Of a stretch of 39,997 nt of DNA, positions 4,980 to 28,679 are shown in pieces. Below the pieces are notes generated by a model, which ran no database searches, was not told the origin of the DNA, and saw only the letters and a program-made list of their open reading frames with translations. The position numbers and the translations under genes are program-made. Origin of the DNA: Clostridia bacterium (lineage in GTDB: Bacteria > Bacillota > Clostridia > Christensenellales > Aristaeellaceae); NCBI GenBank assembly GCA_017465155.1, contig JAFTWV010000126.1, forward strand, positions 1-39,997. The letters are read 5' to 3'. Position 1 is the first letter of the stretch; every line of letters begins with the position of its first letter.

Positions 4980-5296
4980 GCTTTTGCGGGGGAAAGCTTC
5001 GCCGGGAGGTGGGCTCACTGCCTGTATCCCTCCTTGAAAAAATGCGGACGGGAGTCCTTGCGTGTTCGTCAGCCTGCACGTGGGACAAAGGCGTCGACTC
5101 CCGTGCTGAAGATGTCGCAGATAAGCAATACATGAGCGTACAGGATGAAGTCCCGCCCTGATGCCGGCGGGAATCTGCGGAGCGATAAGTTTGCACATTG
5201 GTGGATGTGCACAAAAACAGTGTCTTGCAAGCAATGCACTGTCAAAAACGTTTTCGAAGCAAAAAATGAGCATTAGCGCAAGAAAAGAGCACAAAA
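4980..5296. other. Non-coding stretch with several inverted repeats
   Basis: I see no convincing gene here. Structures visible are ACGGGAGTC (5048-5056) against GACTCCCGT (5096-5104), a hairpin TCCCGCC/GGCGGGA (5151-5172), and a hairpin TGCACAT/ATGTGCA (5192-5211). A weak cre-like sequence (5243-5256, CAAAAACGTTTTCG, three mismatches to the consensus) follows. None of the hairpins has a proper T-run. The short reading frames are probably random. Confidence 0.5.
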
Positions 5297-5324
5297 TGCT
5301 CAAATAACAACAGTTATTTGAGCA
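5297..5324. promoter_or_regulatory. 28-bp perfect palindrome, candidate operator of the sugar operon
   Basis: Arms TGCTCAAATAAC (5297-5308) and GTTATTTGAGCA (5313-5324) are perfect inverted repeats separated by four bases. They end seven bases before the -35 box. There is no T-run, so it is not a terminator. The position suits binding of a dimeric regulator, and the family of that regulator cannot be told from the site. Confidence 0.7.
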
Positions 5325-5331
5325 AAATACC

Positions 5332-5361
5332 TTGACAAGGAAACGGAAGTGCGGTTATGAT
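5332..5361 (+). promoter_or_regulatory. SigA-type promoter of the GH43/ABC operon
   Basis: TTGACA (5332-5337), 18-base spacer and TATGAT (5356-5361). The -35 box is embedded in a small dyad CCTTG-A-CAAGG (5330-5340). The leader is about 70 bases long. Confidence 0.8.
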
Positions 5362-5440
5362 AGCAATAGTGCTTAATTGTACAAAATCACCGAATCCGAA
5401 GCGCGTTGGCATTCGGATATTTTTTTCGGAGGAGATGCCT

Positions 5441-6892
5441 ATGAAGATCAAGCAGCTCATCAGCCTTCTGGCGATCCTCCTGCTGGGGACAATGACAAAT
5501 GTCCTTGCGGAGGAGGCCGTCACGCCCAATACGGAGCTGCCGACCCCGCGCTGGCAGGATGTGGCCGTCCATGACCCGTCGATTATCAAGGCGGACGACG
5601 GCTACTACTATATTTTCGGCAGCCATATGGCTGCGGCCAGAAGCGCCGATCTGATCAAGTGGAAGCTGATCTCCCGAGACGCCTCCAATGGTGGCTGTAC
5701 CCTTGTGAAAGAGGTGCAGACGGAGATGAAGGAAGCACTTTCCTATGCAAGGACGACGACCTTCTGGGCGCCGGACGTGGTGCAGCTGGCGGACGGCAGG
5801 TACTACATGTATTACTGCACATGCGAGGGCTCATCGCCCCTGTCGGCGCTGGGCTATGCCGTCAGTGACAAGCCCGAAGGCCCGTACGAAAATCTGGGGA
5901 TCATCCTCAAGTCGGGTTACGGCGGATATAACGCCACGGTGCTGCCCAATGCCATTGATCCCTGCCTGTTCTATGATAAAGAGGATCGGCTGTGGATGGT
6001 TTATGGCAGCTATTCCGGCGGTATCTACATTCTGGAAATGGATCCCGTGACGGGCCTTCCGTTGGAAGGACAGCTCAATGCAGGATATGGCAAGAAGCTG
6101 CTGGGCGGCAACCATGCCCGCATCGAAGCTCCCTATATCCTTTACAGCCCTGATACGGATTACTATTACCTGTTCCTGTCCTTTGGCGGATTGGGCGCGG
6201 CGGATGGTTACAACATCCGCGTTTGCCGGTCGAAGACGCCCGATGGCCCCTATGAGGATGCGCTGGGACAGAACATGATCCGCTGCGCAGGCCGCGCCGG
6301 CACCTTTTTCAACGATCCGGATTATGAGCCCTATGGCGTGAAGCTCATGGGAGGCTACGAGTTCATGCCGGTTTCTACGGACAAGAACAAGTTCACGCAG
6401 GCGTTCCGAAGCCCCGGTCACAACAGCGCCTATTATGATGAAGAAACAGGCCGGTATTTCATGATCTTCCATACCCGTTTTGCCAACACGGGCGAGGCCT
6501 TCAGCGTTCGCGTGCATCAGATGTACATGACGGCAGACGGCTGGCCTGTGGTGTCTCCGATGCGGTATGCCAATGAAATGCCGCAGCCTGTTGCAGCTGA
6601 AGCGATGAGCGGCGTGTACAAGGTGCTGCTCCATGGACGCGATATCAACAAGGTGGAGCACGAATCGCAGGAGATGACGCTCCATGCAGATGGTATGGTC
6701 ACCGGCGCGCTTACCGGAACATGGCAATGTACTGACGGCGTCAACGTGACATTGACGCTTGACGGCCTGAATTACACCGGCGTGATGCATACCGCGCTGG
6801 AGGCCGGTCAGAAAAACTGGGCAACCTGCATCTCTGCGCTGGACGAAACAGGCGCTTCGCTCTGGGCCGTCCGCGCTCTGGTACAAGACTAA
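5441..6892 (+). CDS. Secreted GH43 arabinan endo-1,5-alpha-L-arabinosidase-like enzyme
   Basis: A 483-residue exported glycosidase. The signal peptide (about residues 1-23) ends NVLA|EEA. The five-bladed GH43 propeller carries the three expected acids: base Asp45 (VHDPSII), pKa-modulating Asp173 (NAIDPCLF) and acid Glu229 (RIEAPYI). WAPDVVQLADGRYYMYY and the C-terminal beta-domain from about residue 385 (SGVYKVLLHGRDINK, then MTLHADGMVTGALTGTW) match the arabinanase subgroup with a GH43_C domain. The ATG at 5441 has GGAGGAG six bases upstream; the earlier in-frame start at 5357 lies inside the -10 box. It is the first gene of the operon, which suggests arabinan or arabino-oligosaccharides as substrate. 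Exact specificity (endo or exo) is inference. Confidence 0.92.
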   Translation: MKIKQLISLLAILLLGTMTNVLAEEAVTPNTELPTPRWQDVAVHDPSIIKADDGYYYIFGSHMAAARSADLIKWKLISRDASNGGCTLVKEVQTEMKEALSYARTTTFWAPDVVQLADGRYYMYYCTCEGSSPLSALGYAVSDKPEGPYENLGIILKSGYGGYNATVLPNAIDPCLFYDKEDRLWMVYGSYSGGIYILEMDPVTGLPLEGQLNAGYGKKLLGGNHARIEAPYILYSPDTDYYYLFLSFGGLGAADGYNIRVCRSKTPDGPYEDALGQNMIRCAGRAGTFFNDPDYEPYGVKLMGGYEFMPVSTDKNKFTQAFRSPGHNSAYYDEETGRYFMIFHTRFANTGEAFSVRVHQMYMTADGWPVVSPMRYANEMPQPVAAEAMSGVYKVLLHGRDINKVEHESQEMTLHADGMVTGALTGTWQCTDGVNVTLTLDGLNYTGVMHTALEAGQKNWATCISALDETGASLWAVRALVQD

Positions 6893-6910
6893 TGAAGTGG
6901 GGTGAATAGC

Positions 6911-9786
6911 TTGCGCACACGAATCGTTACTCTGGTCATCCTGCTTTGCTGCATGTTCACCTTCGCCGTGGCGGAGGATGTTCAGGCGGCGCAGACGGTG
7001 GACACGCTGTATACCGCAGCAGCCAGGGCATATACGCTGCCCGTATATGCCGGTGAAGCCGTAACGACCGAAATGTCTCTCTCCCTGCCGCTGAACACAA
7101 AGGGTGAGGCAACCTTTGCCGTACCAGAGGATGGTCAGTATGAGATCTGGCTGTCCTACGTGAACACGGCAAACACCACGCTGCCTACGGAAATGACCGT
7201 CGCCATCGACGGTGAAATCCGCTTTGCTGAGATGCAGCGCGTGAAGCTGCATTCCACCTGGGTGGATGACGGCGTATTCCCCACGGATCGCTACGGCAAC
7301 GAAATTGCTACCACGCCCTATGCGGCGCAAGGCGTTAACGAGGCCGGCATCAGCGATTCCACCGGCCGCAGTGCCGATCCGATGCTCTTTGAGCTCACGG
7401 CAGGCGAGCATACCATTGCCTTTTCCGTTCAGGATGGCGGCGTGGATATCTCTGCCCTGACCCTCAAGGCGCCTGTGATGGTACCTGCCTATGTGGGCGG
7501 CGATGCTTCGGGTGACAGCATCATTGTCATCGAGGCCGAGCAGATTGCGGAGCGCAGCGAGTCCTCCATCCGCGGTGCGGGCGAGTTCAACGCGGCGCTG
7601 TCTCCCTACAACAATGATCACCGCATGATCAACTTCCTTGACGGCGCATCCTTCGATGCGGCGGGCGATACAGTGACGTGGAAATTCACGGTGGAGGAGA
7701 GCGGCTGGTATCAGCTGGGCGCCTATTACCGCCAGAGTGCCCGCGCGGACTTCCCGACCTTCGTCGACGTGTATGTGGACGGCGTGATTCCCAGCACGGA
7801 GGCGCAGACCGTGGCCTTCGACTACACGACCAGCTTCACGCACATGGTTGCCAGAACCGGCGCGGGGGAGAACATGACCCTCTATCTGGAGGCGGGCGAT
7901 CATACCCTGTCCTTCCGTATCAACGCAGAGTGCATGACTCCTGTGTATGAGACCATTGATGTACTGCTGGAGGAGATCAACGTCCTGTCCAATGACATCA
8001 AGTCCCTCATGGGCGGTGCGACGGCCGATCCCTACCGAGATTATAACATGCTGGAGAACTTCCCTGATCTGGTTGACCGGCTGAATGGCTGGGCCCAGAA
8101 GTGCGAGGATCAGGTGACTTACATCAAGCAGTTCTCGCCCATCGGAAGCGGCTCTGCGTTCTCGTCCCTGACCCTGTGTGCAGATCAGCTGCGCCGTCTG
8201 GCGGATGATCCTGAGGATCTGCCCCGCCGTATGTCCGAGTTCTCCACCGGCGCAAACTCTGCTGCCCGTATGCTGGCGCAGCAGCTGACAGATATGGCCA
8301 TCAATGATCTGTCTATTGACCAGATCTACCTGTACCAGACCGAAGCCAAGCTGCCGGCGAAGGCGAATTTCATCCAGAGCACGGCAGCGGGGATTCAGCG
8401 CTTCTTTACGTCCTTCACCAACACCGACTACACTGCCGGCAACGGTGAGGAAGGCCATCTGCAGGTCTGGATGGGCCGCAGCCGCCAGTATGTCGAGACT
8501 GTGCAGAACATGATCGACACTCAGTTTACCCCCGCTACCGGCATTGAGGTTGATATCTCCCTGATGCCCGACGCGAACAAGCTGGTACTGGCCAATGCTG
8601 CCGGTACTGCGCCGGATGTAGTGCTGAGCCTGCAGTACGTTGTGCCCAGCTACCTGAACATCCGCGGCGCGCTGTATGACCTGACGCAATTCGAGGACTT
8701 CCCGGAGGTGGCTCAGCGCTTCTCATCTGGTCTGTTCATCCCCTACATTCTGGGCGACGGTGTGTATGCCATGCCTGAGACGGTCAACTTCTGGGTCATG
8801 TTCTATCGCAAGGACATCCTGGAATCGCTCCAGATTGAAGTGCCCAACTCCATGGACGAGGTCAAGCTCATCCTGCCGGAGCTGCAGCGCCGTTCGATGA
8901 ATTTCTACTTCCCCACGGCCGGCATGGTTGGCACGAAGGTGTTCCCCGGAACGCTGCCCCTGATCCTGCAGGCCGGCGGCTCCATTTACCCCGAGACCAT
9001 CGGCGATACCACCCTTGACAGCGAGATCTCCCTCGAGGGCTTCCGCGAGATGACCGAGCTGTTCACCATCTACAACATGCCTACGGACGTTCCGTCTCCC
9101 GGCTTCTACCAGCAGTTCCGCGACGGCACGCTGCCCATCGGCATTGCTGATCTGGCCACCTACAACCTGCTGCTCAACGCCGCGCCTGAGCTGGACGGCC
9201 TGTGGGACATTGCGCTGTTCCCCGGTCTGACCAACGACGAGGGCGAGGTGCTCCGCTGGACGACCGGCGGCGCGGAAACCATGGCCATCATGTCTGCTGC
9301 GGCGGATCATGGCATGGAGGATGAGGCATGGGAGTTCCTGAAGTGGTGGTCCTCTGCAGAGGTGCAGAGCTCCTTCGGTAACCTCCTGCAGAGCACCTAT
9401 GGCTCCGAGTACATCTGGCCCACTGCCAATCAGGAAGCCTTTGCGACCCTGCCCCTGCGCTCGGCCCATAAGCAGGTCATCATTGAGCAGATGGAGTGGA
9501 TGACCGAAGCGCCCTGGGTGCTGGGAACCTACATGCTGGAGCGCGAGCTGTCCAACGCCTTCATCTCTGTGACGGCAGACGGTGTGGAAGCGCGCCGCGC
9601 CATGGACACGGCGGTCAAGCGCATTAACCGCGAGACCTACCGCAAGCTGGAGGAATTCGGCTACTACAAGGACGGCGTGATGCTGGAGGAATTCCCCACG
9701 CCGAGCGTCGAGGTTATTACGAACCTGATCGAAGAGTACAACGCGAAAAAGGCTGTTGAAGCCGCAGCAGAGGAGGGGACAGCTGA

Positions 9787-9790
<4 letters not shown>
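6911..9790 (+). CDS. Oversized sugar-binding protein with N-terminal carbohydrate-binding-like domains
   Basis: About 959 residues, twice the usual length of an ABC solute-binding protein. After a signal peptide (cleavage near FAVA|ED) come two beta-rich modules resembling CBM6/CBM35 folds. The first spans about residues 30-195 (for example [14 protein letters not shown]). The second spans about 205-355 ([15 protein letters not shown], then [18 protein letters not shown]). A helical linker (about 355-510) leads to a family-1 extracellular solute-binding domain ([49 protein letters not shown]). The TTG at 6911 is preferred because GGGGTG lies six bases upstream; a GTG at 6902 in the same frame lacks a site. 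No lipobox cysteine is evident. It overlaps the next permease by four bases (ATGA). It probably captures oligosaccharides at the surface. Confidence 0.88.
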
Positions 9791-10671
<881 letters not shown>

Positions 10672-10687
10672 GAAAGGAGGGAATCCC

Positions 10688-11554
10688 GTGGCAGTTGGCG
10701 GAACCAAGGTCAATCCGAAAAAGTTTGAAACCAGCCAGATACCGCTGTACGTGTATCTGCTTCCTCTGGCAGTGCTGATGGGCGCGCCGATCGTGTACAT
10801 CATTTGTCACGCGTTCAAGCCCATGGATGAGCTGTTCGCATTCCCCCCGAAGTTCTTCGTGAGCCACCCCTCGCTGATCAACTTCCAGAACCTGATGCAG
10901 CAGGCGGCGGCCTCTACCGTGCCCTTCTCCCGCTATGTGTTCAACTCTCTGGTAGTGACTGCGGCGGTGCTGGTGCTGGCCATCCTGATTTCCACCATGG
11001 CTGCATTCGCGCTGAGCAAGATGCGCTTCCGGCTGAAGAACATCATGATGGAGATCAATAACCTGGCGCTGATGTTCGTGGCTACGGCTGTCGTCATCCC
11101 GCGCTACCTGACCATCTCTACCATTGGCATTCTTGATACGTGGCTGGCGCACATCCTGCCGCTGATTGCAATGCCTGTGTGTCTGTTCCTGATCAAGCAG
11201 TTCATGGATCAGGTGCCGGACTCCCTTCTGGAGGCTGCGCAGCTGGAGGGAGCAGGCTCCTTCACCATCTACCTGAAGATCATCCTGCCCATGGTGAAGC
11301 CTGCCATTGCGACCGGCTGTATCCTGACCTTCCAGCAGGTGTGGAACAACACGGAAACTTCCAACCTGTTCACGTCTACTGAAAGCATCCGCACGCTGGC
11401 GTTCTATATGAACACCCTGTCCGGTGTGGGTACGGTTCAGGGTCAGGGCATGGCAGCTGCGGCAGCACTGATCATGTTTGTCCCGAATCTGGTGCTGTTC
11501 ATCATCAGCCAGTCCAGCGTTATGAATACCATGGCGCACTCTGGCCTGAAGTAA
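10688..11554 (+). CDS. Sugar ABC transporter permease (MalG/ThuG-like)
   Basis: A 288-residue permease with six predicted helices (PLYVYLLPLAVLMGAPIVYI near the start). The EAA loop is at about residues 184-203 (EAAQLEGAGSFTIYLKIILP). The GTG at 10688 is chosen because AAAGGAGGG stands seven bases upstream; an in-frame upstream start at 10637 would overlap the previous gene and has no site. It forms the second half of the first permease pair and lies 16 bases after it. Confidence 0.94.
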   Translation: MAVGGTKVNPKKFETSQIPLYVYLLPLAVLMGAPIVYIICHAFKPMDELFAFPPKFFVSHPSLINFQNLMQQAAASTVPFSRYVFNSLVVTAAVLVLAILISTMAAFALSKMRFRLKNIMMEINNLALMFVATAVVIPRYLTISTIGILDTWLAHILPLIAMPVCLFLIKQFMDQVPDSLLEAAQLEGAGSFTIYLKIILPMVKPAIATGCILTFQQVWNNTETSNLFTSTESIRTLAFYMNTLSGVGTVQGQGMAAAAALIMFVPNLVLFIISQSSVMNTMAHSGLK

Positions 11555-11566
11555 GGAGGATTGAAG

Positions 11567-13606
11567 ATGAAGAAATTTGCAGCATGGCTGCTCCTCGTCG
11601 TCCTCCTTCTGTCCGCATGCCTGACTGCACAGGCTGCGACGCCCTTCCGCACCTTCACTCTCGGCACGGATGACGACCTCATTGAGACTCAAACGGCCTA
11701 CGATCCTGTGCGTACGATGATCCGCTTTGGTGAAGAAACCCTCAAGCAGCCGCAGGATCTCCGCATGGGCCCCGATGGCAACCTCTACATCGCCGACAAC
11801 GGCAACAAGCGCATCCTCGTTGTAGACAAGGAAGGCAACTTCGTCAAGGAAATCGTCGACAAGAAGAACATGAAGTCCGCCATGGGTGTGTTCGTTGACG
11901 AAAACCTGAACGTCTACGTCGCGGATGAGAAATCCCGCGCTGTACTGGTGTATGACAAGAACGGCAAATATGTCATGGAATATGGCAAGCCGACACACCA
12001 GCTCTTTGGTGACACGGCGCCCTATGTGCCCCAGAAGGTCGTGCTGGACAAGCGCGGCAACCTCTACATCGTGTCCAAGGGCAATACCAATGGTATCGTG
12101 CAGATCAGCCCTGTGGGCGGCGGTGAGTTCCTGGGTTACTATGGCGCCAACAGCTCCCGCATTTCCCTCCTGACGCATGTGCGCCGCTTCCTTTTCGGTG
12201 AGAATTCCGATGTGGTGGCGGGCATCGTGCCGATTTCTGTCAAGAATCTGACCATCGACCAGAAGGGCATGGTCTATACCGTGACAGAGGCGGGCGATGA
12301 AAGCTCCCTGCGCCGTCTGAACGTGGCCGGCAAGAGCACCATGACGCCGGAATGGTGGATTGAGCTGAATACGTCGGTTGCGGTCAATGCTTCCGGTTCC
12401 ATCTTCACAGCCAACGCCAACGGTACCATCATGGAGTATACCTCCGAGGGTGCGCTGCTGTTTGTGTTCGGTGCCAATGATGCGCTCAGCGAGCAGCGTA
12501 TCGGTATGTTCAAGTCCGTTACGGGTATGGTGGTCGACGATGATTACACCATCTATGTTCTGGATGCGAACCTGAACAGCATTCAGGTCCTCAAACCCAC
12601 GGAGTTTACCGACCTTGTGCATCAGGCCTTCACGCTGTTCCAGCAGGGTAAGTATGCCGAGTCCAAGGCGCCGTGGACGGAAGTGCTGCGCATGAACTCC
12701 CTGTTCACCTACGCTTCCACAGGTCTTGGCGAGGCGCTTTACCGAGAGGGTGATTATGAGGAGGCCATGGAGGCCTTCCGCAACGGCGGCTACCGTCAGG
12801 GCTACTCTGACGCATGGTGGGAGCAGCGCTCCAACATGCTGCACACCAACATGTCCACCATCATCTACGTGGCTGTGGCGGTCATCGTGGTGTGGCAGAT
12901 CATCAAGCTCCTTGATCGCAAGACGGGAATCCTCAAGCCTGTGCGGTTTGTGAAGCAGAAGATTACCGGCGTGAAGCTGATTGATCAGGTGCTTTACGTC
13001 TTCCAGATGCTCCGCAATCCCTACGATGCGTGCTACGGCATCAAGCGCGAAAAGCGTGCGGGCGTGCTGTCGGCTATGATCGTACTGGTGATCTTCTTTG
13101 TGGAATTTGTGGCGAACAAGTATTTTGCCGGCTTCCTGTTCAAGACGATGCCGGACGGTTACTTTGAGCTGCTGAACGACTTCATCAGCGTCTTCGGCGT
13201 GTATGCACTGCTGACCATCTGCTGCTATCTGGTCTGCACCATCACCGACGGCGAGGCGAAGTTCCGTGACATCTTCATCACCGCCGCCTATGCGCTGGCG
13301 CCGATGATTGTGTTCCAGCCCATCAAGCTGGTGCTGTCCAATGTGCTGACGTTCAATGAGGAATTCTTCATCACCCTCATCGATGTGGTCAGCCTTGGCT
13401 GGACGGCTCTGCTGATCGTCCTGATGCTGATGTATCAGAATGACTATACGCTCAAGAAGACCTTCAAGACCATTTTCCTGACGCTGTTCTGCGTGCTGGT
13501 CGTGGTGGCTCTGATGGTAGTACTGTACATGCTGATCAGCCAGCTGGTGGACTTCATTGCGTCCATTTACGGAGAGGTGGTGTATCGCTTTGTCAAGAAA
13601 GTCTAA
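11567..13606 (+). CDS. NHL-repeat/TPR/Yip1 membrane protein of unknown function
   Basis: A 679-residue protein with an N-terminal signal or anchor (FAAWLLLVVLLLSACLTAQA). NHL-type propeller repeats fill about residues 50-350 (LKQPQDLRMGPDGNLYIADN, MGVFVDENLNVYVADEKSRA, MVVDDDYTIYVLDANLNSIQ). Two TPR-like helices follow at about 350-420 (AFTLFQQGKYAESKAPWTEV, EALYREGDYEEAMEAFRNGG), then a transmembrane helix at about 430-450. A Yip1-like domain with five or so helices completes it (VLSAMIVLVIFFVEFVANKY, then VYALLTICCYLVCTITDGEA). The first helix could end in a lipobox (LLSAC). The ATG at 11567 has AAGGAGGA six bases upstream. The propeller is predicted outside the cell. The gene overlaps the DUF5696 gene by 17 bases, implying joint function. 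Confidence 0.85.
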   Translation: MKKFAAWLLLVVLLLSACLTAQAATPFRTFTLGTDDDLIETQTAYDPVRTMIRFGEETLKQPQDLRMGPDGNLYIADNGNKRILVVDKEGNFVKEIVDKKNMKSAMGVFVDENLNVYVADEKSRAVLVYDKNGKYVMEYGKPTHQLFGDTAPYVPQKVVLDKRGNLYIVSKGNTNGIVQISPVGGGEFLGYYGANSSRISLLTHVRRFLFGENSDVVAGIVPISVKNLTIDQKGMVYTVTEAGDESSLRRLNVAGKSTMTPEWWIELNTSVAVNASGSIFTANANGTIMEYTSEGALLFVFGANDALSEQRIGMFKSVTGMVVDDDYTIYVLDANLNSIQVLKPTEFTDLVHQAFTLFQQGKYAESKAPWTEVLRMNSLFTYASTGLGEALYREGDYEEAMEAFRNGGYRQGYSDAWWEQRSNMLHTNMSTIIYVAVAVIVVWQIIKLLDRKTGILKPVRFVKQKITGVKLIDQVLYVFQMLRNPYDACYGIKREKRAGVLSAMIVLVIFFVEFVANKYFAGFLFKTMPDGYFELLNDFISVFGVYALLTICCYLVCTITDGEAKFRDIFITAAYALAPMIVFQPIKLVLSNVLTFNEEFFITLIDVVSLGWTALLIVLMLMYQNDYTLKKTFKTIFLTLFCVLVVVALMVVLYMLISQLVDFIASIYGEVVYRFVKKV

Positions 13607-16169
13607 GCTGCTTTCTCTGGTGCTGGCAGCGGTGCTGCTGTGCTCCTGCTGCCTGCCCGCCTTCGCGCAGGGCGCCCAGAGCGAGCCCGCGGCTTCCTCC
13701 AGCGTTCCTGCCGGATACACGCTGGTAGCCTCGAGCAGCCGCTTCAATCTGTACCTGCGCCAGGATACCATGGCCTTGATCGTCGAAAGCAAAGAAAATG
13801 GCCAGCTCCTGTATTCCACCGTGCAGGATCCCAATACCGGCAATAAGACCTGGAAGGGCTTCTACCAGTCCGGCGTGGTCATCGAGTATCTCGAGGACGT
13901 GAAGGATAAGCCTATTCAGGCGGATTTCATCAACAATGCCAACACCGTTACTTACGATTTTGCGGAGAATGCCTTTACTGCGCACATCAGCTACACGGAT
14001 CTGGGCATCAGCTTTGATGTGAATGTATGGCTGGATGAGGCGGGCATTCACGCGCATGTGCCTACGGACAGCATCGTAGAGACCAGGGACGAGACCTTCA
14101 TGATCGTCCTGAACGATGCTGGCGCGGAAGAACGCGTTGACATGACCAAGTACACCAAAACCGCTGAGGAGAGCGAGTTCCTGCTTACCGCGAAGGACGG
14201 CAAGGTGTATACCCTCAACAAGACCTACTACGTTTCCACCAAGGGCGATACCGTAACAGTCAAGAATGTGGACGGCACTGCACAGGTAACCGTCCCGCTG
14301 GCAGAGGGTGCTGCAGTGTCCTGCGGCGTGCAGGCGACGGATGCAGCCGGCAAAGCTGTGGAGCTGGCGGCGGCGGATGTGGTCAGCGTACAGAAGAACA
14401 TGTACGTTACCGGCACTGCCAAGGATGGCTCTGCCCTGCGGATCCCGAAGGAGAAGGTCGTTTCCATCAGCGAGTATTCCTACACCATCGCATCCATCTA
14501 TCTGTTCCCCTTCATGGGATACAGCGTGGCGGGCGAAGGGAAGGGATACATGATCATTCCCGACGGACAAGGCGCGATCGTAGGCTTCGAGGATAACGAA
14601 GGCCGTTATTCCTCGCCCTATGACAAGCAGGTCTACGGCATGAACATCGGCGTGGAGGATCAGGCGTCCTCTGATACCCGCGTACCGGCTGAGGATGTGC
14701 TGGCGCCCTTCTTCGGTATGGTGCATACGGATAAGCAGATCGCCGTATTGGGCGTGGTCGAGGGTGGCGACATTTCTACCCGCATTCAGGCTTACCCCAA
14801 CGGTGTGCGCAACCTGCCCTTTGACTGGGTGACGGCCAAGCTCACCTACCGCTTTGTGTTCAGCCAGCCCATGGGTCCCGGCGCCGGCGCCGTGGCTACC
14901 CGCAATGCCCATCGCCGTCAGTTCGACGTTATCCAGCATTTCCTGCTGGAAAGCGGCGCAACGGCCAGCTATGCAGGCCTGGCAGTGGCTTACCGCAATT
15001 ACCTGCTTGAACAGGGAACCTTCGAAAGTGCGGAGGATCGTGACTTCGACGTGCAGCTGGACTTCCTTGGTCTGGAGCGCGAAAATTTCATCCTTGGCAA
15101 GCAGGACGTGGTGATGACTACCTTCGAGCAGGCCGGAGAAATCATCGATGCACTCCACGGTAAGGGCGTTGAGAACATGAGCGCCGTTTACCGCGGCTGG
15201 CAGACCAACGGCCTGACGGGTGGTATCCCCACCGACAGCTACAGCCCGGCCCGCTCCCTTGGCGGTGCGAATGGCCTGAAGGAGCTGCGGGAAAAGGCGG
15301 AAGCCATGGGCGTAAGCTTCGCTCTTGAGGCCGACGTGCTGAGCCTGAACATCGAGACGCATCCGACCATGACTTTCAGCGCGTACAAGAAGATTACTTC
15401 CCAAACCTGGTCCAAGCCTACCTTCGGCCTGGTGTATGATACGCTGCATTACCTGACCCCGGCTGTGTCCCGCGATGTGGCGGATGGCCTGATCAGGCAG
15501 CTGACCGACGCAGACGTCAAGGGTGTATCCTTTACGGGCATCACCCAGCTGCTGGCGGACTACTACCATCAGAATGCATACCATGACAGCAGTGAGATGG
15601 CCGCGGTTTACAGCAGCATCGTCGACAAGGCAAATGACGTCATGACCACCAGCCTTGTCAGCCCCAACGCTTATCTGTGGCGTTACGCAGATGCGATCAG
15701 CGATCTGCCCATCGGCGGCAGCGATTACACCTACACCGATGCAGAGATCCCGTTCCTGACCATCGCGCTGTCTGGTCAGATTCCTTACTATGTGGAGTAT
15801 GTGAATTTCCAGGCCAATACCAAGGAATTCTTCCTGCACCTGATGGAGCAGGGGGCGCGTCCCTCCTTCCTGCTTACGTGGGAGGACCCCATCAAGCTGC
15901 AGAACTCCAACTCCTCCAGCATCTACTCCTCCAGGTACGAACTGTACGAGAGCCTGATTGTTGAGTGGTACGGCGAGCTGAAGGCGCTGTATGAGACGGT
16001 CGGCAAGGATGGTGTGATCATGGATCATGTCCGCTCCGGCGATATGGTTTGCGTCACCTGGTCCAACGGCACGAAGGTCTACCTGAACTTCGGCGACAGG
16101 GCAGCTTCCATGGACGATGTGACTCTGGAGAAACTGAGCTTTAAGGTGGTGAACGGCAATGGCAACTAA
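13590..16169 (+). CDS. DUF5696 exported protein, possible glycosidase-like TIM barrel
   Basis: About 859 residues. The N-terminal signal (LLSLVLAAVLLCSCCLPAFA) contains a possible lipobox (LCSC). Residues about 30-450 look beta-rich, like a large sandwich domain. Residues about 480-740 alternate strands and helices like a (beta/alpha)8 barrel, with segments such as VENMSAVYRGWQTNGLTGG, MGVSFALEADVLSLN, VKGVSFTGITQLLADYYHQ and DLPIGGSDYTYTDAEIPFL. A C-terminal beta segment closes it (GDMVCVTWSNGTKVYLNFG). This matches the DUF5696 family, for which I know no characterised member. The TTG at 13590 is chosen because GAGGTGG precedes it and a signal peptide begins there. It overlaps both neighbours (17 and 11 bases). 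A hydrolytic role is inference only. Confidence 0.82.
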   Translation: MSRKSKLLSLVLAAVLLCSCCLPAFAQGAQSEPAASSSVPAGYTLVASSSRFNLYLRQDTMALIVESKENGQLLYSTVQDPNTGNKTWKGFYQSGVVIEYLEDVKDKPIQADFINNANTVTYDFAENAFTAHISYTDLGISFDVNVWLDEAGIHAHVPTDSIVETRDETFMIVLNDAGAEERVDMTKYTKTAEESEFLLTAKDGKVYTLNKTYYVSTKGDTVTVKNVDGTAQVTVPLAEGAAVSCGVQATDAAGKAVELAAADVVSVQKNMYVTGTAKDGSALRIPKEKVVSISEYSYTIASIYLFPFMGYSVAGEGKGYMIIPDGQGAIVGFEDNEGRYSSPYDKQVYGMNIGVEDQASSDTRVPAEDVLAPFFGMVHTDKQIAVLGVVEGGDISTRIQAYPNGVRNLPFDWVTAKLTYRFVFSQPMGPGAGAVATRNAHRRQFDVIQHFLLESGATASYAGLAVAYRNYLLEQGTFESAEDRDFDVQLDFLGLERENFILGKQDVVMTTFEQAGEIIDALHGKGVENMSAVYRGWQTNGLTGGIPTDSYSPARSLGGANGLKELREKAEAMGVSFALEADVLSLNIETHPTMTFSAYKKITSQTWSKPTFGLVYDTLHYLTPAVSRDVADGLIRQLTDADVKGVSFTGITQLLADYYHQNAYHDSSEMAAVYSSIVDKANDVMTTSLVSPNAYLWRYADAISDLPIGGSDYTYTDAEIPFLTIALSGQIPYYVEYVNFQANTKEFFLHLMEQGARPSFLLTWEDPIKLQNSNSSSIYSSRYELYESLIVEWYGELKALYETVGKDGVIMDHVRSGDMVCVTWSNGTKVYLNFGDRAASMDDVTLEKLSFKVVNGNGN

Positions 16170-17148
16170 GAAAAAACAGCAGAATATGCAGGAGATCGCC
16201 ATCGCGCCGAAGAAACCTTCTAAGCGTGAAAAAAATCCGCACGACAAAAAGCGCCTCACCAAACGCCGTGTGCGTGAGTGGCTGTATGGCTATCTGTTCC
16301 TGTCTCCGTGGATTATTGGCGTGATCATCTTCTTCGTGTGCTCGATGGTCACTTCGCTGAATTACTCGGTGCACAAGATCATTTTTGACAATGGTGTGCA
16401 GCTCCAGCCTCTGGAGTTCTGGTACAAGAACTATGTGGACGTCTTCACCCTGGAGACGGACCTGCCGACAACGCTTGGTACCTTCACCATCAGCCTTGTG
16501 CTGCAGCTGCCCATCATCATTTCCTTCTCGCTGATTATCGCCATGCTGCTCAACAGCAAAATCCGCTGCCGTTCGCTGTTCCGCATGATCTTCTTCCTGC
16601 CGGTGATCATTGCGACCGGCCCCGTGATGACTATGCTGACTGCGCAGGGTGTGGCGACGGTTCCCATGATGAGCGACGGTTCGCTGACGGTGCTGCTGGG
16701 AGGGCTTCCGGCTTTCATCGCGGAGCCGATCACGGAGCTGTTCAATTCCCTGATTCTGATCCTGTGGAATTCGGGTATTCAGATCCTGATCTTCCTCTCC
16801 GGCCTGCAAAAGGTTTCCACCACCATGTATGAGGCGGCAAAGATCGACGGTGCGAACGGCTGGGAGTCCTTCTGGAAGATCACGCTGCCGATTCTCAAGC
16901 CCATCATTCTGCTGAACTCGGTTTACACGGTTGTGGCGCTGGCTACCGGCGGTACGAATGAGATCATCGAGCTGATCTATTCCGCCACCTACCTCACGCC
17001 GTGGACCAAGGGCTACAGCTATGGCATGGCCTTCAGCTGGATCTATACGGCGATCATCGCGGTGATCCTGATAGTCGTGTTCCTGCTCCTCAAGGAGAAG
17101 AGCGACAAGAAGGTCAAGTACGAGAAGCGTCTCGTGACGCTGCGCTAA
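16159..17148 (+). CDS. Sugar ABC transporter permease (second pair, MalF/LplB-like)
   Basis: A 329-residue permease with a basic N-terminal tail of about 40 residues (KKKQQNMQEIAIAPKKPSKR) before the first helix (GYLFLSPWIIGVIIFFVCSM). The EAA loop is at about residues 223-242 (EAAKIDGANGWESFWKITLP). The ATG overlaps the end of the DUF5696 gene by 11 bases and uses AAGGTGGTG as its ribosome binding site. It is one half of the second permease pair of the operon. Confidence 0.94.
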   Translation: MATKKKQQNMQEIAIAPKKPSKREKNPHDKKRLTKRRVREWLYGYLFLSPWIIGVIIFFVCSMVTSLNYSVHKIIFDNGVQLQPLEFWYKNYVDVFTLETDLPTTLGTFTISLVLQLPIIISFSLIIAMLLNSKIRCRSLFRMIFFLPVIIATGPVMTMLTAQGVATVPMMSDGSLTVLLGGLPAFIAEPITELFNSLILILWNSGIQILIFLSGLQKVSTTMYEAAKIDGANGWESFWKITLPILKPIILLNSVYTVVALATGGTNEIIELIYSATYLTPWTKGYSYGMAFSWIYTAIIAVILIVVFLLLKEKSDKKVKYEKRLVTLR

Positions 17149-17160
17149 GGAGGGAAGAGA

Positions 17161-18138
17161 ATGATACGTTTCAAACTGCCTCCCAAGGGCGCACGCAAGG
17201 ATTACTACAAGAAGGTTATGCTGGGCAGCAACGACCGCCGCGGCGTGGTCATGAGCATTGTGGTTTACGTGCTGCTGATCACCATCGCCTTCATCTACCT
17301 CTACCCGGTGCTCTACATGTTCTCCCGTTCCCTGATGGACAAGACGGATCTGTTGGATGCATCGGCCAAATGGATCCCCAGCTCCATCACGCTGAACAAC
17401 TATACCTCGGCCGTCGCGACGATGGATTACTGGAATTCGCTGGGCAAGAATCTGGCGATTGCCTTGTCCTCAACGCTGCTGCAGGTGTTTGTCTGCTCGC
17501 TGGTGGGTTACGGCTTTGCGCGGTACAACTTCCCGGGCAAAATGTTCTGGATGGTGATCCTGATCCTGTCCTTCCTGCTGCCCTCGCAGACCATCGCCGT
17601 GCCAAACTTCCTGCTGTTCAACTCCTTCTCGCTGGTTGACGGCACACTCAAGCCCTTCCTGATCACAGCTGCCCTGGGTCAGGGCTTCAAGAGCTGCCTG
17701 TGCATCCTGATCTTCTACAACTTCCATCGTCAGGTGCCCCAATCCCTGATTGAAGCGGCAGAAATCGATGGCGCGGGCCATATCAAGGCATACTTCCAGA
17801 TTGCCGTTCCGCTGTCTGCGGCGGCCATCGTGGTCGTGACGCTGTTCTCCTTCGTGTGGTACTGGAACGAGGTTGACCTTGTACGTACCTATCTGGGCAG
17901 CACCAACGACCGAAACAAGGGTCTGACCACGCTGATGCTTGAGCTGAATAAGTTCGAGGACAGCTACAATGCCGTGTACGCCACGCATGCGCAGAGCGCT
18001 ACATCCACCAACCGCCTGAACGACGCCATCAAAATGGCCGGTACAATGCTCTCCATTGCGCCGATGATGCTGATGTACTTCTTCCTGCAGAAGCAGTTCG
18101 TCGAATCTGTTGACAAGGCCGGTATTACGGGCGAGTAA
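17161..18138 (+). CDS. Sugar ABC transporter permease (second pair, MalG/LplC-like)
   Basis: A 325-residue permease, first helix near residues 30-52 (GVVMSIVVYVLLITIAFIYL), and an EAA loop at about residues 200-220 (EAAEIDGAGHIKAYFQIAVP). It starts 12 bases after the previous permease with AAGGAGGG upstream. A long loop near the C-terminus (about residues 245-290, with TYLGSTNDRNKGLTTLMLEL) is typical of this subtype. A hairpin in the following gap separates it from the second binding protein. Confidence 0.94.
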   Translation: MIRFKLPPKGARKDYYKKVMLGSNDRRGVVMSIVVYVLLITIAFIYLYPVLYMFSRSLMDKTDLLDASAKWIPSSITLNNYTSAVATMDYWNSLGKNLAIALSSTLLQVFVCSLVGYGFARYNFPGKMFWMVILILSFLLPSQTIAVPNFLLFNSFSLVDGTLKPFLITAALGQGFKSCLCILIFYNFHRQVPQSLIEAAEIDGAGHIKAYFQIAVPLSAAAIVVVTLFSFVWYWNEVDLVRTYLGSTNDRNKGLTTLMLELNKFEDSYNAVYATHAQSATSTNRLNDAIKMAGTMLSIAPMMLMYFFLQKQFVESVDKAGITGE

Positions 18139-18149
18139 GGCTTGCACGT

Positions 18150-18177
18150 CCCCTGCTTTGCATCAGCAGGGCAGGGG
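18150..18177 (+). repeat. Intra-operon hairpin between permease and binding-protein genes
   Basis: CCCCTGC (18150-18156) can pair with GCAGGGG (18171-18177); alternatively CCCTGCT (18151-18157) pairs with AGCAGGG (18165-18171) around a seven-base loop. No T-run follows, so it is not a normal terminator. Such hairpins can protect mRNA segments or set unequal expression. Confidence 0.6.
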
Positions 18178-18253
18178 AGACAGGACTCTGTTTCCCATTC
18201 AGAATCAAAGCCGCGAGTCGGCTATGATTACATTTTATAAGGAGGGTACCCCA

Positions 18254-19684
18254 ATGAAAAAGCTGGTTTCCCTGGTGCTGGCTCTGTGCATGGCGCTGTC
18301 CCTGTGCTCCTTCGCGAGCGCTGAGGCTGCCTACAACATGCCTGCCATGAACACCACCGACCCCATCACCCTGTCCGTCATGACCTGGGACGACTTCGAG
18401 ATGGCTGAAGCGCTGGCCGCTTCCTTCACCGAGCTGTATCCCAACATCACTGTCGAGATCGTTCGCACCACCACCGCGAACGTCACCGCGGATCTGACCA
18501 ACTACGCCGCGGCTGGCACGCTGCCGGACATCTTCTTCTTCCTCGACATCGATCCTCTGCTGGCCAGCCCCTATCTGGCTGACATCACCGAGTACATCGA
18601 GAACGACGAAGAGGCCCAGACCAAGCTGTATCCGACTCTGCGCAAGATTGGCTACATCGATGGCAAGCGCTGCTACTTCATGGCTGGTGAGTTCCTGCCC
18701 GCGACCGTGTACCTCGATGCCAACGTCTTCGAGACCCTGAACATCGAAATGCCTGGTCAGGACTGGACCTGGGAGCAGTTCGTTGAGCTGACCCAGACCA
18801 TGACCGATCCCTCTCAGAACATCTGGGCTTACACCAATGGTATGTATGCCCCCGTCACCTTCGGCCCCATCTCCCTGACCGAGAATGCGATCGGCGAGTT
18901 TGGCTGGAATGGCGAGAGCTACAACTTCGAGTCCGGCTGGGCCGAGGCTCTGGAGCTGCAGCAGGAGAATGTCCGTCTGGGCAACACCGCCGTGGCTGCT
19001 TCCGAGGAGTACATGGCGCTGCATGCTGATCAGGAATGGCCCGGCCAGACCGGTCACGTGGCTGTCCTGACCGACGCCTTCTGGACCCTGAACAACATCT
19101 ACACCAAGCCCCTGGCGCTGGATCGCGGCATCAAGATGGTGCCCTACAATCCTCCGGTGGGCGCCGAGAGCGGCGGCCAGCTGGCCTTCCTGGACAATGT
19201 TGCCATCTCTTCCGCTTGTGAGTATCCCCGTGAGGCTTATGAGCTGATGAAGTACCTGACCTGGGGCAAGGACGGCTGGATGAAGCGCTGCGAGCTGTTC
19301 CCCACTCTGGTTTGGGAAGACACTGAGAACAAGGCTTACGACGTGCCCAACTGCCTGCCCATGATCCAGGATGAAGAGCTGAACGCTGCGTTTGCGGATC
19401 TGATGCCTGACCTGGGCTACTGGAATGACTGGGCTTCCTTCATGGAGAACATCAAGAACCCCGTGACCTGGGGCGCCCGTACCATCCCCGGCTTCAACGC
19501 CTTCCTGGCTAACTACTACCTCGGCAACGACTTCAATGGCGTCATCGGCATTGAGGCTGCTGTGGACCAGGGTGTGGCTGATCCCTACGACTACGTCGAG
19601 GAGCTGGCTGAGCAGGGTAAGTACTACTACGAGCAGGCGATGGCCGCCTTCTTCGAGATCTACGGCCAGCCCGACGCTGAGTAA
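18254..19684 (+). CDS. Sugar ABC transporter solute-binding protein (family 1)
   Basis: A 476-residue extracellular binding protein. The signal peptide is residues about 1-23 (LVSLVLALCMALSLCSFASA|EA). The mature part begins with the typical ITLSVMTWDDFEMAEALAAS and TELYPNITVEIVRTTTANVT, then GTLPDIFFFLDIDPLLASP and a hinge-type C-terminal half. There is no conventional lipobox: the cysteine in LSLC has Leu at -1. The ATG at 18254 has AAGGAGGG upstream. Codon use is strongly biased to C-ending codons and CTG compared with the permeases, which suggests very high expression. It is the last gene of the operon, followed by a terminator, and probably serves the second permease pair. Confidence 0.94.
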   Translation: MKKLVSLVLALCMALSLCSFASAEAAYNMPAMNTTDPITLSVMTWDDFEMAEALAASFTELYPNITVEIVRTTTANVTADLTNYAAAGTLPDIFFFLDIDPLLASPYLADITEYIENDEEAQTKLYPTLRKIGYIDGKRCYFMAGEFLPATVYLDANVFETLNIEMPGQDWTWEQFVELTQTMTDPSQNIWAYTNGMYAPVTFGPISLTENAIGEFGWNGESYNFESGWAEALELQQENVRLGNTAVAASEEYMALHADQEWPGQTGHVAVLTDAFWTLNNIYTKPLALDRGIKMVPYNPPVGAESGGQLAFLDNVAISSACEYPREAYELMKYLTWGKDGWMKRCELFPTLVWEDTENKAYDVPNCLPMIQDEELNAAFADLMPDLGYWNDWASFMENIKNPVTWGARTIPGFNAFLANYYLGNDFNGVIGIEAAVDQGVADPYDYVEELAEQGKYYYEQAMAAFFEIYGQPDAE

Positions 19685-19756
19685 TTCCGGTTTATCTGAT
19701 TGACTCAGTGCAGGCTGCTGATGGTCCTCGGGACTTCGGCATGACCTGAACCTCCA

Positions 19757-19789
19757 GGGGAGCGGCTTTCGGGCTGCTCCCCCTTTTTT
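19757..19789 (+). terminator. Rho-independent terminator of the GH43/ABC operon
   Basis: GGGGAGC (19757-19763) pairs with GCTCCCC (19776-19782), followed by CTTTTTT to 19789. Confidence 0.93.
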
Positions 19790-21962: not shown

Positions 21963-21984
21963 TCAATCCGGGTGAGCCCGGTGA

Positions 21985-23499
<1,515 letters not shown>

Positions 23500-23553
23500 A
23501 AGCTGTGATGCCCCTGTTCAACCGCAAAATCTGATCAATCCATACAAAAAATG

Positions 23554-23595
23554 AGGCGCGTTTGTGCAAGAAATGAGCATAACGCGCCTTTTTTT
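23554..23595 (+). terminator. Rho-independent terminator of the GH51 operon
   Basis: AGGCGCGTT and AACGCGCCT form a nine-pair stem around an 18-base loop and are followed by a run of T. Confidence 0.92.
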
Positions 23596-23670
23596 GTGTA
23601 GTGTATTCAGAAAATGTGTGTTAATATGGTAATAAATAAACCGTTCTGAACATGAAAGGGGAGGACGTAG

Positions 23671-24888
23671 ATGAAAAAGCTGATGTCTCTCGTACTGGCG
23701 GTGTTGATGTGCCTGTCATGCTCTGCCATTGCAGAGGAGGAGCGCGGTGCGCTGGAGTATCAGCCGCTGAAGGAGCTGACGGTTCCGCTGGGCTTCACTA
23801 TGGGCGCGCCGCTGAGCTACAACCAGATGGCTGACGGGCAATATCTCAAGCTGCTGAGGCATCATTTTGATACCATCACGACGACGAACGAGATGAAGGC
23901 ATACTCTCTTCTGGATCAGCGGGCGAGCCAGCGCAGCAGCGATGGCATGCCTGTCATGAACTACACAAAGGCTGATAAGATGGTCTCGTGGGCTCAGAAG
24001 GCGGGCCTGAAGGTGCGTGGTCACGTGCTGGTCTGGGATGCATATATGACCCAGTGGTTCTTCCACGAGGGATATGACGTATCGAAGCCTATTGCGGATC
24101 AGGAAACCATGCGGCAGCGTGTGCAGTCCTATATTGAGGACGTGATCTGCCATTTTGAAGAAAAATTCCCTGGTGTGGTATACTGCTGGGATGTGGTAAA
24201 CGAAGCCGTGGGCGACAATGCCGGCGAATATGTTCCCAGCGATGCGCGCCATGTTCGCACCAAGCGCAACGGCGCGGCAAATCCTTTCTACGAGTATGTC
24301 GGAGAGGATTATGTGGAGCTTTCCTTCCTGTACGCGAGGGATACCGTTGATCGCCTTGGTGCGGATATCAAGCTGTTCTACAATGATTACAGCTCCTTCT
24401 ACGAAAACAAGCGAAATGCCATCAAGACGCTCGTGGAGAGCATCAACAGCTATGCTGTGGACGAAAATGGAAATCCCAGGAAGCTGATCGACGGCGTGGG
24501 TATGCAGGGCTATATTGGCGGCTACGGCACCCAGAGCGGCTGCTTCTCCAACAATGACCTGGCGCTGATCAAGAAGTCCATTCAGGAATACGCAGCACTG
24601 GGTGTTCAGGTGCAGCTGACGGAAATGTCCGTCCGCAATTACAGGGTGGAAGAAGATGCACAGCATGCGGAGTACTATGGCCGCCTCTTCAAGGTGTTTG
24701 CCAGTGTCAACAGCGGCGATGCAAGACCTTTGACCAGCGTGGCCATCTGGGGCGTGAAGGATTGCAACGACCTGCCCACCAACCATTATACATACAAACT
24801 CAACGGCCCCTACTGCGGTCTGTTCGACCTGAAGCTTAATGTCAAGAATGCGTTTAAGACCGTGTATGCGCAGCTTGGTGGCGAGTAA
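23671..24888 (+). CDS. Secreted GH10 glycosidase (xylanase-like, variant active site)
   Basis: A 405-residue exported GH10 protein, family activity endo-1,4-beta-xylanase. The signal peptide is residues about 1-21 (VLAVLMCLSCSAIA|EEE). The catalytic acid/base Glu178 (WDVVNEAVGD) and nucleophile Glu318 (VQLTEMSV) are both present, as is Lys76. Several usually invariant GH10 positions are changed. TNEMK has Thr72 where Glu is usual, and VWDAYM has Asp123 where VWH is usual. NDYS has Ser241 for Asn, GMQGY has Tyr281 for His, and TEMS has Ser320 for Asp. No carbohydrate-binding module is attached. The ATG has GGGGAGGA upstream. I see no strong promoter in the 75-base gap after the terminator. It is probably a divergent xylanase subgroup, and the substrate is uncertain. 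Confidence 0.9.
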   Translation: MKKLMSLVLAVLMCLSCSAIAEEERGALEYQPLKELTVPLGFTMGAPLSYNQMADGQYLKLLRHHFDTITTTNEMKAYSLLDQRASQRSSDGMPVMNYTKADKMVSWAQKAGLKVRGHVLVWDAYMTQWFFHEGYDVSKPIADQETMRQRVQSYIEDVICHFEEKFPGVVYCWDVVNEAVGDNAGEYVPSDARHVRTKRNGAANPFYEYVGEDYVELSFLYARDTVDRLGADIKLFYNDYSSFYENKRNAIKTLVESINSYAVDENGNPRKLIDGVGMQGYIGGYGTQSGCFSNNDLALIKKSIQEYAALGVQVQLTEMSVRNYRVEEDAQHAEYYGRLFKVFASVNSGDARPLTSVAIWGVKDCNDLPTNHYTYKLNGPYCGLFDLKLNVKNAFKTVYAQLGGE

Positions 24889-28579: not shown

Positions 28580-28626
28580 CGTAAAATCAGTCCTTGCTAC
28601 ATAGAATGGGGCTTATGGTACGATGG

Positions 28627-28640
28627 TGGAAACGTTTTCA
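28627..28640. promoter_or_regulatory. cre-like site upstream of the GH13 gene
   Basis: TGGAAACGTTTTCA (TGAAAACGTTTCCA on the minus strand) fits the CcpA consensus TGNAANCGNWNNCA at every fixed position. It lies between the phosphorylase terminator and the GH13 start, suggesting carbon catabolite control. Other LacI-family regulators use similar sites. Confidence 0.7.
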
Positions 28641-28652
28641 GGAAAACTGGGG

Positions 28653-28679
28653 AAAAGGCCCGGACAGTGGAGTCCGGGC
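28653..28679 (-). terminator. Rho-independent terminator after glgP
   Basis: GCCCGGAC (28658-28665) and GTCCGGGC (28672-28679) form a perfect eight-pair stem with a six-base loop. On the minus strand CTTTT follows. Confidence 0.9.

Follow-up and report, generated by a model that had tools for sequence, protein, structure and literature searches.

The gene cluster at positions 5297..19789 of the window (the whole stretch of 39,997 nucleotides of Clostridia bacterium DNA that was analysed) is not peculiar to this locus but one instance of a widespread bacterial gene set with a strict order. The order of this set, here called the module, is SBP1-P1-P2 / NHL-TPR-Yip1-DUF5696-P3-P4 / SBP2, where P1 to P4 are permeases and SBP1 and SBP2 are binding proteins. 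Four complete copies are present in this genome, and the module also occurs in other Bacillota, including Paenibacillus (among them P. barcinonensis, loci L098 and L148), Cohnella and one Butyrivibrio plasmid. The similar gene sets that the preliminary description mentions in Paenibacillus and Clostridia are real. The reading that we favour, with somewhat better than even confidence, is that the module serves to import glycans in general, by way of an importer that has two additional subunits of its own, a membrane scaffold and a glycan-handling ectodomain, and a second importer working alongside it.

The open reading frames and Pfam domains agree with the gene order first listed for the cluster, all on the forward strand. 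A GH43 glycosidase with a signal peptide (5441..6892, in a frame open from 5357; PF04616, E 2.6e-38, and PF16369) is followed by the 962-residue SBP1 (6902..9790), the MalF-type permease P1 (9787..10671; PF00528), the MalG-type permease P2 (10688..11554; PF00528), the NHL-TPR-Yip1 protein (11567..13606), the DUF5696 protein (13590..16169), the MalF-type permease P3 (16159..17148; PF00528), the MalG-type permease P4 (17161..18138; PF00528) and SBP2, a binding protein of ordinary size (18254..19684). The spacing is as tight as was claimed, given the start codons chosen by the analyst, on which these figures depend: 9 nt from GH43 to SBP1, an overlap of 4 between SBP1 and P1, 16 nt from P1 to P2, 12 nt from P2 to the NHL-TPR-Yip1 gene, overlaps of 17 between the latter and DUF5696 and of 11 between DUF5696 and P3, 12 nt from P3 to P4, and 115 nt from P4 to SBP2. 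The nine genes are probably one transcription unit, and their arrangement is beyond chance because the same order recurs at many other loci.

A sigma-70-like promoter (TTGACA-18-TATGAT, 5332..5361, forward strand, 11/12 consensus matches) precedes the genes, and a hairpin resembling an intrinsic terminator (19757..19782, forward strand, 11 pairs, 8 of them GC, with a T-run) lies at the end of the unit; the next strong promoter-like site on the same strand is at 19936. Since the scan of the window found six promoter-like sites against a shuffle mean of 9.8, and 18 terminator-like sites against 13.8 (sd 3.4) in shuffles, that is, promoter-like sites no commoner and terminator-like sites little commoner than in shuffles, these calls are supporting only. 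Just 5′ of the -35 element is a perfect palindrome with 12-bp arms, TGCTCAAATAAC-AACA-GTTATTTGAGCA (5297..5324), a candidate operator. Its 22-nt core has no second site at up to three mismatches in the genome assembly, which is 68.5% complete, and therefore no regulon could be built from it. Another palindrome 5′ of the promoter, AAAACGTTTT (5245..5254), is present once in the window and in none of 100 shuffles, and resembles a LacI/CcpA-type half-site.

The preliminary description proposed that the DUF5696 and NHL-Yip1 genes belong with ABC permeases, and a survey of 128 DUF5696 loci bears this out. NHL-Yip1 is immediately 5′ of DUF5696 at all 120 loci with enough contig, and P3-P4 is immediately 3′ at 122 of the 124 loci with room, the remaining two being split frames; rare co-occurrence is thereby ruled out. 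When 20 more loci were picked by Yip1 alone, DUF5696 was in the cluster at every one, directly downstream at 19 and in a permuted order at one. DUF5696 (over cut-off) and module-type Yip1 (at least 142 bits, the best other Yip1 scoring 46 bits) occur in the identical 26 of 299 genomes of the phylum. The number of full Yip1 copies reaches 17 in the fragmented genome G082. SBP1 has a full match in 25 of those 26 genomes and a contig-edge piece in the other (G103), and is also found in two genomes outside the 26, on contigs that stop inside P1. Most adjacent core genes are no more than 30 nt apart (109/124 for DUF5696-P3). SBP2 is linked more loosely, with gaps of 30 nt or less in 7/39 cases from P4 to SBP2 and in 8/76 cases between SBP2 and SBP1, and is present at 32 of 44 phylum loci. 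An apparent giant DUF5696 fusion of 2554 residues (L207) was discarded because it results from a masked stretch of N.

These counts bear on a rather unlikely explanation in which two ordinary, independent ABC importers are co-transcribed with an active secreted glycosidase (DUF5696) and a housekeeping-type membrane protein, the link among them being regulatory only. Mere co-regulation would not be expected to fix gene positions at 120/120 and 122/124 loci, nor to place both proteins in the same 26/299 genomes. Patterns of divergence, which count for independent importers as well as for the favoured reading, fall into two blocks, SBP1-P1-P2 and NHL-Yip1-DUF5696-P3-P4-SBP2, which are less distinct over all 741 pairs (0.73-0.88 between them). 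The two extra genes are thus not spread evenly between the importers, as had been implied; their divergence tracks P3-P4-SBP2 more closely than SBP1-P1-P2. Matched divergence is also explicable by shared inheritance of an operon. SBP1-P1-P2 adjoins the rest of the module at 94 of 98 loci with room. In favour of independent importers, SBP1-P1-P2 is sometimes downstream of P4 (L079, L080), and SBP1 is found on contigs for which no module-type Yip1 is listed (G062:C52, G101:C80). SBP1 copies are fewer than Yip1 copies in several multi-copy genomes (G062, with 10 Yip1 and 4 SBP1, G165, G135, G040 and G082). Because it is not always adjacent and is outnumbered in multi-copy genomes, SBP1-P1-P2 may be a separate importer. 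The simple idea that one SBP1-P1-P2 unit is common to all modules of a genome was rejected, as many-module genomes keep several SBP1 copies.

In the permease tree, P3 of the module forms one clade (70 rows), and P1 of the module (46 rows) together with four SBP1-adjacent copies forms another, both apart from ordinary permeases; judged from these sequences, the members of the P1 clade are shown to share descent, and those of the P3 clade likewise. Loops resembling the EAA motif of ABC permeases were found in 120/121 P1, 99/102 P2, 123/123 P3 and 126/136 P4 proteins, using a pattern that was widened, after the P1 of the window had been seen, to admit the one extra residue that P1 proteins have before the proline; a narrower pattern caught only 18/121 P1. 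SBP1 and SBP2 both match PF01547, in SBP1 at the C-terminal end. The N-terminal half of SBP1, with CBM35-like and golvesin-like matches below the Pfam cut-off, retrieves SBP1-type proteins when used as a lone query and has no useful match in the PDB (best E 0.018).

The NHL-TPR-Yip1 protein consists of a signal peptide, an NHL propeller (PF01436), a TPR region (PF13432, just under cut-off), a transmembrane helix and a Yip1 domain of five transmembrane segments (PF04893, 38.5 bits against a curated cut-off of 28.6). It is a single gene in the window, whereas each of the other three module copies in this genome has it split into two genes. From a topology predicted by hydropathy only, we read it as a membrane scaffold with an outward-facing propeller and TPR.

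The DUF5696 protein of the window (PF18952, E 1.9e-140) was called uncharacterised in the preliminary description, which is not wholly so: it is predicted to be secreted, and its profile and predicted fold are like those of GH129 and DagB. Its structural model, with a mean pLDDT of 66 and very low values at residues 103-281, matched DagB (5opq, E 3.9e-29) and the GH129 enzyme NagBb (5wzn, E 3.7e-21) in Foldseek, at 12% identity and a TM-score of about 0.5 by query length; the overall predicted fold of DUF5696 is that of NagBb and of the GH129-like DagB (5opq, and 8rzk, the D486N variant with substrate). Profile similarity covers the first half of the barrel and, for DagB, extends weakly to the N-terminal and C-terminal domains. 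A plain GH129 assignment was rejected, there being no match of the window copy to PF11308 at E up to 1 (the filters of HMMER remove most hits weaker than about 0.1); PF11308 is found in 0/199 phylum genomes and 0/14 controls, and hence is uninformative on absence.

The catalytic nucleophile is Asp435 in NagBb and Asp486 in DagB, according to PMC5698469. The candidate nucleophile column where barrel strand 4 of DUF5696 ends, mapped by strand counting in the model and not by residue-level superposition, has Asp in 36 of 56 representatives; the protein of the window differs from NagBb and DagB in having Gly650 there. The DUF5696 profile has a residue other than Asp where NagBb has the Asp of its LHLDGW stretch, and an Asn is conserved at the expected acid/base position, also placed by strand counting. 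As far as this model can guide, DUF5696 in this copy would bind glycan rather than cut it, and many of the members with the strand-4 Asp may be active enzymes. The enzyme fold and the frequency of that Asp agree with an active glycosidase carried beside two independent importers; however, the Asp label switches at least eight times on the tree, and the module is retained throughout.

The other glycosidases of these neighbourhoods vary widely (GH10, 43, 30, 26, 42, 31, 3, 95, 130, 38, 9 and 5, from 151 neighbour frames scanned at other copies), whereas the module core is constant where they differ, a further point against a link by co-regulation only. Given this variety, neither arabinan nor arabinoxylan was accepted as a substrate for the family as a whole; of the earlier proposal of arabino-oligosaccharides, what stands is that arabinoxylan or arabinan is likely for this copy only. 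The neighbourhoods also hold regulators, which could point to NHL-TPR-Yip1 and DUF5696 being a sensor pair that signals bound glycan to a regulator and has no part in transport. The Butyrivibrio copy has histidine kinase and response regulator genes as its neighbours, and AraC-type, LacI and histidine kinase families occur near others. These families match few neighbour frames (HTH_18 4/76 and 5/75, LacI 4/75, His_kinase 3/75), whereas P3-P4 follows DUF5696 almost invariably, and neither the two proteins of the window nor those relatives that were scanned have a signalling domain, making a sensor pair very improbable.

In the favoured reading of an importer with extra subunits, P3-P4 and SBP2 would form a CUT1-type ABC importer with NHL-TPR-Yip1 as its dedicated membrane scaffold, while the DUF5696 ectodomain would hold glycan where import takes place, perhaps also trimming it in certain lineages. 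SBP1-P1-P2 would be a second, nearly always present importer cooperating with the first, its binding protein having extra CBM-like domains. The ATPase would come from outside the operon, presumably as a shared MalK/MsmX-type protein: Pfam found no MalK-type ATPase among the nine proteins and two matches (PF17912) elsewhere in the genome, and one related module copy is headed by a ugpC ATPase. This copy probably imports arabinoxylan or arabinan fragments released by GH43, GH51 and GH10. In this reading the parts of the module would form one physical complex. A bolder and rather doubtful proposal is a single large machine for long-chain uptake, a Bacillota counterpart of SusCD, with two ABC permease cores, a Yip1-anchored scaffold of propeller and TPR that bridges them, and a GH129-derived glycan receptor; several modules could then share one SBP1-P1-P2 unit.

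In Bacteroidota, SusCD takes up glycans through a TonB-dependent porin with SusD. The module is similar in having an invariant transporter core, variable glycosidases around it and many copies in some genomes, but would be powered by ABC permeases, and no TonB-dependent porin or SusD domain was found by Pfam in the nine proteins of the window. The 4F2hc/rBAT heavy chains of SLC7 transporters share with DUF5696 the idea of a glycosidase-fold ectodomain as a transporter subunit; they have a GH13 fold and serve animal amino-acid exchangers, and no homology is claimed. YesL/DUF624 proteins, found in Bacillus pectin-importer operons, are likewise extra membrane proteins linked to an ABC sugar importer, but belong to a family other than Yip1 and lack NHL, TPR or a GH-like partner. 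The module also resembles CUT1 (MalEFGK-like) importers such as the arabinoxylodextrin importer XuaABC of Ruminiclostridium cellulolyticum, described in PMC9675976 with one SBP and two TMDs: the likeness lies in a family-1 SBP, a permease pair with EAA loops, short gaps and arabinoxylan enzymes nearby. CUT1 importers are defined by one SBP and two permeases with no further dedicated subunit, whereas in the module four permeases and two SBPs are joined by two further conserved subunits of non-ABC type. Searches of the open-licence PMC literature found no description of the module, of DUF5696, of Yip1 in Caldicellulosiruptor, or of NHL proteins with ABC genes in Butyrivibrio or with permeases in Paenibacillus; on the Yip1 domain they gave a review of Golgi proteins.

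Gram-positive degraders of plant fibre are usually thought to import glycans by plain ABC systems of one SBP and two permeases. To these the conserved set of eight to nine genes adds two dedicated subunits, in 26 of the 299 phylum genomes sampled. If the two extra proteins are parts of an importer, the view of glycan uptake would be revised for many gut and soil bacteria, DUF5696 and Yip1 would be a marker gene pair for locating such loci, and the module would offer a test case of a glycosidase fold turned into a transport receptor.

Nine genes on the + strand span 5357-19684 of the window, beginning with a GH43 gene and continuing in the order that the preliminary description had given: binding protein SBP1 and permeases P1 and P2 (importer 1), an NHL-TPR-Yip1 protein, the GH129/DagB-like secreted protein DUF5696, and permeases P3 and P4 with binding protein SBP2 (importer 2). 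Its account of the spacing also holds, with overlaps of 4 nt (SBP1/P1), 17 nt (Yip1/DUF5696) and 11 nt (DUF5696/P3) and one long gap, the 115 nt from P4 to SBP2. A sequence scan placed a promoter (TTGACA-18-TATGAT) at 5332-5361, with a perfect 12-bp palindrome (5297-5324) just upstream of it, and a terminator hairpin at 19757-19782. These sites, which frame one unit, serve only as supporting evidence because promoter matches in the region are no more frequent than in shuffles. The core of the palindrome has no second site, at 3 mismatches, in the sequence of the window's own genome (G000; 2.8 Mb, 68.5% complete). Further up from the palindrome is a AAAACGTTTT site (5245-5254). The next strong promoter-like site on the + strand, at 19936, precedes a separate downstream group (19995-24888) of two GH51-type arabinofuranosidases and a GH10 xylanase; on the minus strand, a SufBD-core protein adjoins an ABC ATPase, probably SufC (24946-26606), and a GH13-type amylase lies beside a carbohydrate phosphorylase as a starch/glycogen pair (26813-31205).

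G000 has four matches each to DUF5696 and Yip1, all within modules of the same order, SBP1-P1-P2-NHL/TPR-Yip1-DUF5696-P3-P4-SBP2. NHL-TPR is fused to Yip1 in the window and is a separate frame in the three other copies; across the own, phylum and named sets of loci, fusion is seen in 35 NHL frames and not in 91, counting broken frames. At one of the other copies (L011), an additional binding protein that follows the module (16481-18022) has a lipobox-like motif, whereas the first SBP2 has none.

The neighbourhood of DUF5696 and NHL-Yip1, which the preliminary description had proposed to survey, was examined at 128 DUF5696 loci: the four of G000, 44 from a draw across the phylum, and, from named genomes, the best 80 of at least 577 relatives, mostly Paenibacillaceae with many near-copies. 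Gene labels came from profiles that were derived from the four own modules and then refined with the phylum set. NHL-Yip1 is directly upstream of DUF5696 at all 120 loci with at least 2.6 kb of upstream sequence, and P3-P4 is directly downstream at 122 of the 124 loci with room, the remaining two having split frames. SBP1-P1-P2 directly precedes NHL at 94 of 98 loci with room; the exceptions are one split P2, two loci with the set downstream and one without it in the stretch. SBP2 is less fixed (present at 4/4 own, 32/44 phylum and 77/80 named loci), lying downstream in the window and mostly upstream in Bacilli.

Module-type Yip1 was also sought independently of DUF5696 in 299 genomes. It scored at least 142 bits in 26 of them, the best remaining match being 46 bits, and the same 26 hold DUF5696 over its cut-off. 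Four multi-copy genomes (G040, G062, G135 and G165) contained 23 module-type Yip1 places not reached via DUF5696; at all 20 that were examined DUF5696 is within the cluster, directly downstream of Yip1 at 19 and in the permuted order DUF5696-P3-P4-NHL-Yip1 at the other (L203). A search with only the N-terminal half of SBP1 gave a full match in 25 of the 26 module genomes and a contig-edge piece in G103; SBP1 also occurs in G104 and G154, which lack module-type Yip1 and whose contigs end inside P1. A further Yip1 place, reached through SBP1 (L198), has the complete module order. The survey shows fixed position and co-occurrence of the parts. Five genomes of family f15 without DUF5696 over the cut-off (G007, G054, G093, G127 and G157) contain frames of ~250-560 aa that are similar to the N-terminal half of SBP1.

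MalF-type permeases, P1 and P3 among them, were placed on a tree of 144 sequences, made by a quick method and with several long branches; here module P3 (n=70) forms one side of a single branch (support 93), and module P1 (n=46) forms another group (support 99) with the rearranged or split-frame loci L067, L073, L079 and L080. The remaining permeases, from G000 and from flanks, fall outside both groups; P1 and P3 are module-specific. At least three modules of G000 are old, separate lineages, because the window joins L051 and L083, L009 joins L050/L052, and L010 joins L055 in each of the two parts of the tree.

Pairwise divergence among 39 clusters with all nine parts (741 pairs, 640 of them distant) separates two blocks. 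For the distant pairs, correlations are 0.94-0.96 within SBP1, P1 and P2, 0.72-0.90 within NHL, Yip1, DUF5696, P3, P4 and SBP2, and 0.55-0.71 between blocks; over all 741 pairs the split persists less sharply (between blocks, 0.73-0.88). By this split, NHL-Yip1 and DUF5696 group with importer 2. Copy numbers, with weak matches left out, agree with such a tie of the uncharacterised proteins: Yip1 and SBP1 are equal in G000 (4/4), G066 (2/2), G290 (2/2) and G101 (3/3), and Yip1 exceeds SBP1 in G062 (10/4), G165 (8/4), G135 (10/4), G040 (10/6) and G082 (17/8 plus one edge piece of each, in an assembly of 310 contigs with 5% contamination). The last five genomes are 2.2-3.0 Mb in size and each hold between 8 and 17 full copies of module-type Yip1, an increase that calls SusCD to mind.

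An EAA-type loop is retained in each of the four permease families, as judged by a pattern devised here. The operon itself has no ATPase gene, and G000 has two MalK-type matches outside it. The N-terminal half of SBP1 weakly matches golvesin-C (12/20 members) and CBM35 (8/20), in the window below the Pfam cut-off. The propeller and TPR of the window's NHL-TPR-Yip1 should lie outside the cell, because hydropathy gives a signal peptide (4-22), a single helix (431-449) that follows the TPR, and five helices (498-653) in Yip1. Alignments show an invariant Glu and Arg among the last Yip1 residues. The DUF5696 N-terminus is hydrophobic, with a lipobox-like motif in 57/81 Bacilli and 5/48 phylum-set frames that is absent from the window copy.

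Against the PDB, a 44-member DUF5696 profile matched the 3,6-anhydro-galactosidase DagB (5opq, E 2.9e-13) and GH129 NagBb (5wzn, 9.1e-9); a second profile matched more weakly (7.8e-8 and 1e-6). The AlphaFold model of the window protein has a mean pLDDT of 66, residues 103-281 being unreliable and the barrel mostly at 74-98 save loops near 545, 590-620 and 651-670. Foldseek with this model returned DagB (3.9e-29), NagBb (3.7e-21), then GH101, GH36 and GH31, at ~12% identity and TM-scores near 0.5. According to PMC5698469, DagB uses Asp486, Glu517, Glu531 and Asp202, only Asp486 has a catalytic counterpart in NagBb (Asp435), and the authors propose DagB as a family of its own.

By strands counted in the model, the DUF5696 nucleophile position would be near column 650, at the end of strand 4. 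Asp occupies this column in 36 of the 56 representatives (<60% identity) and in 95 of 125 sequences; the G000 copies differ here, L009 and L010 having Asp, the window Gly and L011 Phe. A tree of these 56, with long branches, shows nine changes of the Asp label, of which supported branches force at least eight, and Asp is missing throughout the window's group of seven. The acid/base position is expected at the end of strand 5, at Asn693 (kept in 53/56; Ala in L011). Arg667 is kept in 54/56, the window and L011 having Ser instead; W537 and N739 are kept in 56/56, and E753 in 55/56. That the strand-4 Asp has been lost or gained several times while the module stayed argues that catalysis by this residue is not the core role.

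On plasmid pNP243 of Butyrivibrio fibrisolvens D1, from bovine rumen, the window's order is kept from GH43 on (GH43, SBP, permease, permease, NHL protein, YIP1 protein, DUF5696, permease, permease, SBP, SBP), with a divergent response regulator and histidine kinase ahead of GH43. On a Paenibacillus cellulosilyticus plasmid, the ATPase gene ugpC is directly before SBP1, and LLM-type oxidoreductases follow P4. At this locus (L194, 3552-25836), LLM-class flavin oxidoreductases, an NADPH oxidoreductase and an aldo/keto reductase follow the ugpC-headed module, a set that we take to resemble sulfosugar monooxygenase pathways, so the substrate may be unusual. Neighbour frames were scanned for 76 of 114 chosen in the phylum set and 75 of 110 in the named set. 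Among the first 25 of 93 and 25 of 58 families, respectively, glycosidases top both lists, with GH43 (6) and GH26 (5) in the phylum set and GH10 (13), GH43 (9) and GH30 (6) in the named set.

As we infer the contacts between parts, the direction of hand-over and the substrate, glycan at the cell surface would be captured by the extra domains of SBP1 together with DUF5696, which the NHL/TPR/Yip1 protein would keep at P3-P4; SBP2 and SBP1 would pass chains on to the two pairs of permeases, with energy from a shared ATPase. Every gene of the set already has a database name, and an open-access literature search found no paper on the set. The arabinoxylan importer Xua, described from R. cellulolyticum, comprises a single SBP and two TMDs (PMC9675976). 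We place the module among the CUT1 importers as a new variant that departs from their plain subunit make-up.
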